Assembly: GCA_018623155.1 (NCBI GenBank)
Contig: JAAZVZ010000014.1
Coordinates: 1 to 60,021 of the forward strand
Length of the DNA: 60,021 bases
From: Glaciecola sp.
GTDB taxonomy: Bacteria > Pseudomonadota > Gammaproteobacteria > Enterobacterales > Alteromonadaceae
Reading direction: 5' to 3'
In this document: positions 3,976 to 5,747 of the stretch, one piece after another
How the letters are laid out: the number at the start of each line of letters is the position of its first letter
How positions within the stretch are numbered: position 1 is the stretch's first letter
Program-made: the position numbers and the translations under genes
Notes under the pieces: generated by a model
The model's database searches: none
The model's input: only the letters and a program-made list of their open reading frames with translations
Told to the model about the DNA's origin: nothing

Positions 3976-3998
3976 AAAAAACGCACCCGAAGGTGCGC
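3976..3998 (-). terminator. Terminator of the accessory cassette, copy of the rpoC terminator
   Basis: On the minus strand a stem of six to seven pairs (GCGCACC with GGTGCGT) closes on a TTCG tetraloop and is followed by six T. It lies 17 nt after the stop of the membrane-protein gene at 4015. With its flank (3976-4010) it matches the rpoC terminator with flank (5698-5732) at 33 of 35 positions in direct orientation, so the cassette sits between two copies of the same element. Confidence 0.9.
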
Positions 3999-4014
3999 TT
4001 CCTATTTATTACAC

Positions 4015-5145
4015 TCAAGTCCCCAGATCTGTTAACAAGTTTACAATGTTTGTGTGTATCTCTGGCCTATCCTTAGATAATCTCTGCAATAGTTCTATAT
4101 GATGACTATTCAATTCCGCGCCTTTAATTAATAAAGATTGAATGATTCGTGGAGATGCTGTTGGATTTATTGGCGCATTCACAATAGCAATACCTAGAGT
4201 GTCGATACCCATGGAGGATTTATATGACATTAAATCAAAGGGCTTATCCAACAAAAACTCAAAACTTTCTGCTGGCATCGGCATCATCATCGCCATATCT
4301 AGTACGTGGAGCTCACTCGATTCATCCACTATGTTTACACCAAAATTCTCCAACTGCTTTACAAACTCTATTCTTCCTTGTGAAAGTGCATGTAAAGTTG
4401 AGGTAGGGAATATCTGCGCACCTTGATTCACAAAATTTTCGATCATATCAACTGGCGCACTTAATGCGATCGCTGCATTGGTCAGTGCTGTTAAGGTATC
4501 AACATCACCAGATTCAGCCAGCACTACTTTTTCAAACGCTTCCCATTGTTTGCTCTGAGCATATTGGGCAAGTTGCATACCAATGTTCATCAAATGCATC
4601 TCTTGCTCTTTTGTCAAAGATTGAGTACTTACATTATTATTTGCCATTACAGCTTTTACTTTTTCATGGAATGATTGAAGTTGACTGACAGTGTTGGATG
4701 CTAAAAATCGTTTCGCATCATGATCTGACTTTTCCGTGATTTTAGGGGCGGTTAATTCTGACTGTGCTGCCAAATTTAAATCTGGGACAGATGTAGCAGT
4801 CAGCTTTGCAATTTCTGATTCATATTGTTGAACACTTTGTTCGATGTTTACATCGTTTGCAAACCGTATGTAGCTATTAATATTAAAGATTAATGCAATT
4901 ATAACCACTTGATATTTAAACAACACTTCCCATAAGAAAAACGAAAAATAATCTTTAGTTGATTTTTTATTCATTTCTAGTGCTACATACACAACTATAC
5001 CCAACAAAAAGAACCAAAAATAATGTTCAACATCCCACCTTCCATGCTCTATATCTACGAAAACATCAAAACAAAATTCTACTAATAAAGGGAGAAATAT
5101 TATCGAAACTATATTTTTTAGGTTTAATTTAATTGACTTAATCAT
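4015..5145 (-). CDS. Hypothetical membrane protein with ankyrin-like C-terminus
   Basis: I do not recognise a named family. The 376-residue protein has three hydrophobic segments near residues 10-30, 41-60 and 68-92, then a polar linker (about 100-190) and a soluble C-terminal half. The latter resembles degenerate ankyrin repeats, for example the stretch with LHALSQGRIEFVKQLENFG and a later LLIKGAELN. Its ATG (5145) overlaps the TGA of the upstream cassette gene as ATGA, so translation is probably coupled to it. The gene is clearly richer in A+T than rpoC and rpsL, which suggests acquisition by transfer. A role as partner or immunity protein of the small exported protein is possible but unsupported by any motif. 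Confidence 0.85.
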   Translation of the reverse strand: MIKSIKLNLKNIVSIIFLPLLVEFCFDVFVDIEHGRWDVEHYFWFFLLGIVVYVALEMNKKSTKDYFSFFLWEVLFKYQVVIIALIFNINSYIRFANDVNIEQSVQQYESEIAKLTATSVPDLNLAAQSELTAPKITEKSDHDAKRFLASNTVSQLQSFHEKVKAVMANNNVSTQSLTKEQEMHLMNIGMQLAQYAQSKQWEAFEKVVLAESGDVDTLTALTNAAIALSAPVDMIENFVNQGAQIFPTSTLHALSQGRIEFVKQLENFGVNIVDESSELHVLDMAMMMPMPAESFEFLLDKPFDLMSYKSSMGIDTLGIAIVNAPINPTASPRIIQSLLIKGAELNSHHIELLQRLSKDRPEIHTNIVNLLTDLGT

Positions 5146-5605
5146 GATGGGCAGCCTCCGCCATCTATCATGTGTTCTTTGTCTGCATCACAATTTCGTA
5201 TTTCTGTATTATAATAATATGTTCCAATTCCAGTCATTATCGTAGCATAAGCACCGCCAGCAATTCCTAACGGTCCTAACATCGCAGATGCTCCTAATAT
5301 CATTACTGCATTTGAAAACGTATATTGCAATGTCACACCTTCTATACGCTTCGTGCACTCTAGCCACTTCTCCCTAGCTTTTTTGCGACAAATTTCTCCT
5401 AAGGTTAATTCTAATTCTCTTGAGTTTTGATTGAACCCTTCCTTATTCCCATCTATCTGGTAATAAATATTTTGTTGATGCAATTGACTGAAGTAGTAAT
5501 TGGACTCGTCATAGGCGACGAATTGAGCAAATGATTTAGAGCTAAAGCTTATAAAGAACAAGGCAAGGCAAGGCAAGGCAAGGCAAGGCAAGTGATTTTA
5601 TTCAT
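5142..5605 (-). CDS. Small exported protein with frame-shifting pentanucleotide repeat in its signal peptide
   Basis: No family is recognised. The body encodes a signal peptide ending near KSFA|QF, a mature part of about 125 residues with two cysteine pairs (CX10C and CX12C), and a glycine/alanine-rich hydrophobic stretch around GASAMLGPLGIAGGAYA. The only start with a ribosome-binding site is ATG at 5605 (AAGGA five bases upstream), giving MNKIT and then the repeat. With the six repeat copies seen here that frame ends at TAA (5549-5551) after 18 codons. With five copies it reads straight into FFISFSSKSFA and the rest, a textbook signal peptide. In the present register only a TTG at 5591 without a ribosome-binding site opens the downstream frame. 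The gene is therefore either phase-OFF, decayed, or affected by a miscounted repeat. Confidence 0.75.
5559..5592 (-). repeat. Pentanucleotide tandem repeat, about 6.8 units of CAAGG (TGCCT x6 on coding strand)
   Basis: The plus strand has AGGCA six times in perfect tandem (5561-5590), with partial units on both sides. It lies in the signal-peptide codons of the small exported protein. A 5-bp unit changes the reading frame with each gain or loss, and all three frames of the repeat encode the same hydrophobic cycle of Leu, Ala, Pro and Cys, so the repeat can vary without inserting stops itself. Copy numbers of 2, 5, 8 and so on place the ATG at 5605 in frame; six does not. Confidence 0.95.
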
Positions 5606-5615
5606 TTTTTTCCTT
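5606..5615 (-). promoter_or_regulatory. Ribosome-binding site that fixes the cassette start
   Basis: On the minus strand AAGGA (5611-5615) stands five adenines before the ATG at 5603-5605. No comparable site precedes the in-frame TTG at 5589-5591. This decides that the intended start is the ATG, and therefore that the frame is shifted in this copy. Confidence 0.75.
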
Positions 5616-5644: not shown

Positions 5645-5673
5645 GTTATAGACAAGCTTTCATAAACCTGCAA
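5645..5673 (-). promoter_or_regulatory. Possible promoter of the accessory cassette
   Basis: Minus-strand TTGCAG (5668-5673), a 17-nt spacer and TATAAC (5645-5650, five of six consensus bases) lie between the rpoC terminator and the cassette start, about 40 nt before the ATG. The -35 is weak (three of six). It would give the cassette its own transcription, independent of rpoBC. Confidence 0.45.
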
Positions 5674-5695: not shown

Positions 5696-5722
5696 AAAAA
5701 AAACGCACCCGAAGGTGCGTTT
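5696..5722 (-). terminator. rpoBC terminator
   Basis: A nine-pair stem (AAACGCACC with GGTGCGTTT) on a TTCG tetraloop is followed by eight T on the minus strand, 25 nt after the rpoC stop. It is a strong intrinsic terminator. It and its flank (5698-5732) recur almost identically at 3976-4010. Confidence 0.93.
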
Positions 5723-5747
5723 CATATTTATTGCTTTACTAACGAAA

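Follow-up and report, generated by a model that had tools for sequence, protein, structure and literature searches.

Introduction

Slipped-strand contingency loci have been studied mostly in host-adapted bacteria, and in the opa genes of Neisseria the repeat array is located in the signal-peptide codons. Here we describe a candidate locus of this kind in a marine gammaproteobacterium. The DNA analyzed is a stretch of 60,021 nucleotides from Glaciecola sp. (contig JAAZVZ010000014.1, in the following called the window), in which a pentanucleotide array lies at the beginning of ORF1, the first gene of a cassette of two open reading frames (ORF1 and ORF2). In opa, according to a phasome study of Neisseria (PMC5953494), a CTTCT pentanucleotide array governs the expression of an exported protein, and the array of the window would act likewise. 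The locus differs from opa in the unit (CTTGC), in the two-gene cassette and in the marine host, and switching is here a candidate, but in one relative of the cassette, G005, the unit TCTTC is a rotation of CTTCT. At the curated cut-offs of Pfam and NCBIfam no homology to the Opa outer-membrane barrel was found, and the structure model of ORF1 is helical, with low confidence (predicted local distance difference test score, pLDDT, of 55.8). The mechanism would be known in kind and opa-like in principle, and the gene family has no match at curated cut-offs in the libraries searched. What the locus adds are contingency-type repeats in marine bacteria, with three unrelated units at one position of one gene family.

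In pil1 of Streptococcus gallolyticus, changes in GCAGA repeats act on a short reading frame that is preceded by a ribosome-binding site of its own (PMC3894217), as changes in the CTTGC repeats would here. In pil1 a terminator follows the leader, whereas none was detected at the window locus.

CdiA of the contact-dependent inhibition (CDI) systems is a very large surface protein, whereas ORF1 is small, has its own signal peptide and a toxin role that is putative. In CDI ionophore pairs a polymorphic membrane-acting toxin region is found together with a co-varying immunity protein, an arrangement that ORF1/ORF2 may resemble (PMC11630599). In the Cdz system of Caulobacter, glycine-zipper proteins that resemble bacteriocins are accompanied by a small immunity protein of the transmembrane type (PMC5380434); here the likeness is one of description, with no sequence relation seen, and the signal peptide of ORF1 was read by eye.

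A perfect CTTGC array at the start of ORF1

All features of the cassette lie on the minus strand. The array (5559..5592), which is the proposed slipped-strand switch, comprises 6.8 perfect copies of CTTGC (TGCCT) in 34 nt, and its score of 68 is the highest among the 15 rows obtained for the window with Tandem Repeats Finder (TRF). The array is beyond chance, since no perfect periodic tract (period 4-9) exceeded 21 nt when the 1.8-kb region was subjected to 2000 dinucleotide shuffles. A preliminary description of this DNA had placed such an array in the signal-peptide codons of a small cassette gene, and the perfect repeat is confirmed. The description had further proposed that the gene was captured in an OFF phase, and the coordinates and the strand it gave are correct. 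The ATG at 5605-5603 stands 5 nt (five A) behind an AAGGA ribosome-binding site (5611..5615), and both are conserved in the related genome G004. The frame starting from this ATG (5549..5605) enters the array at its nucleotide 14 and closes after 18 codons with the TAA at 5551-5549.

The 149-codon frame of ORF1 (5142..5591), which probably encodes a small exported protein, opens directly after a TAA and in a phase other than that of ATG 5605. Near its N-terminus only TTG starts are available, and the 20 nt ahead of each of them contain no Shine-Dalgarno match, in line with the claim that ATG 5605 is the sole start with a ribosome-binding site. In all three frames the CTTGC unit encodes one identical five-residue cycle without stops, and the copy numbers that bring the ATG in frame are n = 2 mod 3 by arithmetic, both in agreement with the earlier account. 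It had also put the ATGA overlap of the two genes at the early stop. This overlap exists, but it sits at the stop of ORF1 (5145-5142), about 400 nt from the TAA of the ATG frame, which ORF2 thus does not adjoin.

Unrelated repeats at the same place in relatives

Five genomes carry both genes of the cassette in full length: the window genome (G000, 2.3 Mb in 56 contigs), G004 and G005 of the same genus, and Ningiella ruwaisensis B66 (G221) and G085 of a neighbouring genus; the records of G005 and G085 are labelled 'uncultured Glaciecola sp.'. In four of the five a tandem array directly follows the ATG of ORF1, with three unrelated types of unit. Next to the CTTGC array of the window (x6.8), G004 has 4.2 copies of CCTTG (TRF score 43), G005 has TCTTC with 18 nt perfect (3.6 copies) or 5.2 copies at 90% (TRF score 45), and Ningiella has 9.1 copies of AATCAGC, 64 nt perfect. 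AAGGA or GAGG is found close upstream of the ATG in G004, G005 and Ningiella (read by eye). The Ningiella repeat is located ahead of the signal core and not within it. Since these units have no relation to one another, there must have been at least three events in which an array arose or was replaced, and with three unrelated units at one position of one gene family, selection for switching is the simplest reading, not a chance repeat.

To estimate the chance expectation, arrays of period 4-9 with a TRF score of at least 43 were counted as background. There are 3 in 400 kb of G004 and 0 in 400 kb of Ningiella, and among 875 ORFs with a length of 100 aa or more, 1 carries such an array near its start. 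Three arrays per 800 kb correspond to a chance of about 0.001 for an array in a given 250-nt gene start. Arrays in two of the three other lineages (the lineage of the window excluded) would then be expected by chance with about 3e-6, which is an order of magnitude only, given a tally of three background arrays, a score threshold fixed in retrospect and a G005 array that fails a stricter scan for exact copies. The estimate uses the array density because counting arrays near a start, with distances taken from the start codon that comes first in an open ORF, would drop Ningiella, where the first ATG of the ORF1 frame is at 925; measured from the ATG led by a ribosome-binding site, the Ningiella array is start-proximal. 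In distant ORF2-like places no array was present (0 in 29 scanned of 44).

Purifying selection on ORF1 out of frame with its ATG

The frame of the ATG closes early in all four repeat-bearing members, after 18 codons in the window, 13 in G004, 14 in G005 and 46 in Ningiella. The ORF1 frame is nevertheless under purifying selection in the comparison of the window species with G004, although in neither species does it share the phase of the ATG. For this one species pair the ratio of nonsynonymous to synonymous substitution rates (dN/dS) of ORF1 is 0.248 (bootstrap 0.146-0.410, 135 codons), the differences are distributed 21/19/46 over the three codon positions, and the frame is stop-free inside in both genomes. 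For ORF2 the overall dN/dS of the same pair is 0.58. When the two tracts are aligned, a 10-nt gap is seen, which is no multiple of three, with substitutions alongside. Such a frame-shifting length change in a selected gene, confined to the repeat, is the prediction of a slippage switch.

We consider it quite likely that the repeat is a translational contingency switch working by slipped-strand phase variation. The proposal made from the window is supported, since different frame-shifting repeats have come up convergently at the same place in independent lineages, since the downstream frame is under purifying selection and since the tract differs in length between species.

Several observations weigh against a switch. 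G085 has no start-proximal array; its ORF1 frames cross inside the gene (L007:1202-1218), at a G6 tract. The TRF threshold of at least 43 was set after the scores of G004 (43) and G005 (45) were known, and the G005 array fails an exact-copy scan requiring at least 4 units. In the Neisseria phasome study (PMC5953494) one sentence gives a five-copy cut-off for pentanucleotides and a three-copy cut-off for units of 5-9. All three pentanucleotide tracts and the Ningiella heptamer pass the three-copy cut-off, but G004 (4.2) and G005 (3.6 perfect) fall below five copies, which among the pentanucleotides the window alone passes, and the tracts of G004 and G005 may be locked. The comparison of tract lengths covers one genome per species and thus a between-species difference only. 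Finally, all four repeat-bearing members are OFF, which is compatible with decay as well; with one ON phase in three this has a probability of 0.20, so nothing follows from the all-OFF state.

Proposed mechanism and alternative explanations

In the proposed switch ribosomes would initiate at ATG 5605 and slipped-strand mispairing would alter the count of the 5-nt units; one in three copy numbers would bring the signal peptide and the frame of ORF1 into phase with the ATG. The copy that was sequenced would represent an OFF phase, and the tract presumably changes within a population often enough to matter. If the two proteins are toxin and immunity partners, the switch would yield producers and silent non-producers in one clone.

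Two alternatives are unlikely in our view. In the first, translation of ORF1 would be constitutive and begin at a TTG within the array, which would do no more than form a hydrophobic signal peptide, while the frame of the ATG would have no relevance. The window (5591) and G004 (L002:1477) do each have an in-frame TTG, and the purifying selection on the ORF1 frame fits constitutive translation too. However, these TTGs have no Shine-Dalgarno match within 20 nt, whereas the AAGGA-ATG arrangement is conserved in both species. In Ningiella no in-frame ATG, GTG or TTG precedes the end of the signal peptide, the first one being 250 nt downstream of the ATG, while G005 has as its first in-frame start a GTG inside the signal region. 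The Ningiella repeat precedes the signal core. A start at TTG 5591, which the preliminary description had itself set against a switch, falls as a rule for the family, since Ningiella and G005 have no such start, while the window itself still allows it.

In the second, equally improbable case, an ordinary frameshift in the repeat would have killed ORF1 and the family would be turning into pseudogenes. In agreement with decay, ORF1 is broken relative to its likely start in five of five members, the tracts of G004 and G005 are short or interrupted, and the genome G390 retains an N-terminal piece of ORF2 alone. Against it stand the low dN/dS (0.25) and the stop-free ORF1 frame in the window and G004, the location of the frame change at the repeat in four of five members, and ORF2, which is open over its full length in all five.

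A sequencing or assembly error in the tract is very unlikely. Repeats are error-prone and the window genome is a draft, but the tract is no longer than 34 nt, the out-of-frame state occurs independently in G004, whose genome is a single contig, and the tract of Ningiella was assembled for a named strain. Hardly any weight is left for an attenuator controlled by the length of a leader peptide encoded in the short ATG frame, even though pentanucleotide repeats are able to act through a leader peptide in S. gallolyticus pil1 with its GCAGA repeats (PMC3894217), because no terminator-like site is found on the minus strand from the repeat to the end of ORF2, the RNA fold of 5640-5400 is ordinary (z-score 0.03) and the repeat continues directly into the signal peptide of ORF1 itself.

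A mosaic block spanning both genes

Between the window and G004 an approximate block of 585 nt (4760..5344, minus strand), which spans ORF1 in its 3' half and ORF2 in its 5' third, stands out by its divergence. Ten successive 60-column windows of the alignment have 49-76% identity, with sharp edges, whereas the 20 windows outside the block have 82-100%. Outside, identity is 93-98% ahead of the tract, falls to 82% at the tract itself and rises through 88% directly behind it to 97-98% in the 5' half of ORF1, and in the rest of ORF2 it is 89-100%, with at least 95% in 11 of 13 windows. The neighbouring core genes are 96.0% identical on the rpoC side (2995 nt) and 92.1% on the rpsL side (2974 nt). 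The synonymous substitution rate (dS) of ORF2 is 1.2 for codons 1-128 vs. 0.035 for codons 129-376, and that of ORF1 is 1.03 after codon 60 vs. 0.33 before. These contrasts in identity and dS suggest that one exchanged block spans the membrane parts of both proteins. In this one allelic comparison the pattern looks like that of co-evolving toxin/immunity pairs and like allele exchange of an interacting pair.

Possible functions of ORF1 and ORF2

ORF1 has a hydrophobic N-terminus, and the alignment of its five sequences has five invariant columns, three of which are cysteines. A glycine-rich hydrophobic segment is present in the window protein (residues 95-113 of the TTG-numbered frame) and in those of G005, Ningiella and G085. 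ORF2 (4015..5145, minus strand, 376 aa) has hydrophobic helices near the N-terminus followed by a helical C-terminal domain; in its structure model the ten-residue blocks within 191-370 have a pLDDT of 70-88, with a mean of 62.8 for the whole. ORF2 starts within the ATGA overlap in four of five members, and Ningiella has a short gap instead.

Our best guess is that ORF1 and ORF2 form a phase-variable exported effector with a membrane partner. A more specific assignment, ORF1 as an exported membrane-inserting antibacterial peptide and ORF2 as its membrane-bound immunity partner, is tentative and somewhat less probable than not. This toxin/immunity reading is supported by the mosaic block, by the ATGA overlap in four of five members and by sub-threshold Pfam matches of ORF1 in two relatives, G085 to MccV (E 0.012) and G005 to Bacteriocin_IId (E 0.12). 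The two matches, which have no counterpart for the window protein, are hints only.

Other results speak against the toxin part. The ORF1 of G004 has no segment above the hydropathy threshold. Pfam and NCBIfam give no match at the curated cut-off, and PADLOC gives none at E 0.1 for 8 proteins (the two of G004 left out), by which a known defence system was rejected as well. Unrelated families score equally well or better, such as C19orf12 (E 0.0028) and ELL (E 0.019) for the ORF1 of G085, and the window ORF2 matches phosphoketolase with E 0.0012 and 17 bits, where the cut-off is 962. Among solved structures no match by sequence was found for the family of ORF1 or that of ORF2.

Taken to its full extent, the toxin/immunity reading would describe a phase-variable, specificity-swapping antagonism cassette, in which slippage switches an exported glycine-rich toxin and its membrane immunity protein, and in which the exchange of a single block with the membrane halves of both creates diversity; as a whole this is doubtful, though conceivable. 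Free-living marine bacteria would carry the cassette at differing intergenic positions within their ribosomal and RNA-polymerase gene clusters. In the window a GGAGG stands nine bases ahead of the ATG of ORF2, and a silent cell may still make ORF2 and be an immune non-producer. If ORF1 and ORF2 are such a pair, a clone would hedge between making and not making a weapon, and the cost of production would be measurable from tract lengths in natural populations. In the open-access literature, as covered by titles and abstract openings, no description of the gene family or of a repeat-switched bacteriocin was found, and passages of PMC4287609 contain nothing on a switched toxin.

Distribution, genomic site and edges of the cassette

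The ORF2 profile matches 35 of 395 genomes of the bacterial family, mostly with the C-terminal part only, and the five places described above are the full-length uninterrupted ones; the ORF1 profile recovers the same five genomes. A place in G153 covers profile positions 6-378 but holds six internal stops. No sixth full-length, uninterrupted member was found with the ORF2 profile in the 395 family genomes, 13 genomes of the Ningiella genus and 394 genomes of the order (overlapping sets). In a search of genome contigs 3 of 116 pattern matches were confirmed for ORF2 (G005, Ningiella and G085) and 0 of 25 for ORF1. A prophage or plasmid origin was rejected, with no plasmid match for the cassette DNA or the ORF2 protein, 0 of 64 pattern matches of the ORF2 profile on viral contigs confirmed and none in PHROGs for 4 proteins.

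The remnant in G390 (L053 1444-1788) is a lone N-terminal piece of ORF2 near a gene resembling ligA by eye. In G085 the mid-gene frame change at the G6 stretch may be real, decayed or an assembly error, and at a distance of about 2.4 kb from its full-length ORF2 this genome has, on the other strand, an additional ORF2-like gene that is shorter (L068, 5437-6423 and 8840-10027). Distant ORF2-like loci (L009, L014 and others) encode helical domains like that at the C-terminus of ORF2; some are preceded by differing small genes whose products look exported, and such pairs may make up a broader class in this bacterial family.

In the window genome and G004 the two genes sit between rpoC and rpsL. 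Among the 10 genomes of the genus 8 have an rpsL match (none in G008 and G009), of which 7 are whole; reading the junctions by eye, the cassette was found at rpoC-rpsL in 2 of these 7 and a short intergenic region without it in the other 5 (G001, G002, G003, G006 and G007). In G005 rpsL is split in two pieces at contig ends, so the junction is unreadable, and the cassette occupies a different intergenic site, between nusG and rplK (L005 / L029; genes named by eye).

Upstream of the AAGGA lies a promoter-like TTGCAG-17-TATAAC (5645..5673, minus strand), read by eye and present in G004 too. It is missing from the promoter scan, whose rule demands a T at the last -10 position and which lists 8 promoter-like sites vs. 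7.4 from shuffles. The cassette is bordered by two copies of a terminator-like hairpin on the minus strand, one at the upstream edge on the rpoC side (5700..5723, with the repeated copy at 5701-5722) and one at the downstream edge (3979..4000), which has 1 mismatch in 22 and is listed by the scan for the plus strand only. The 20-mer core common to both hairpins has exactly two exact matches in the whole window genome, namely these two edges.
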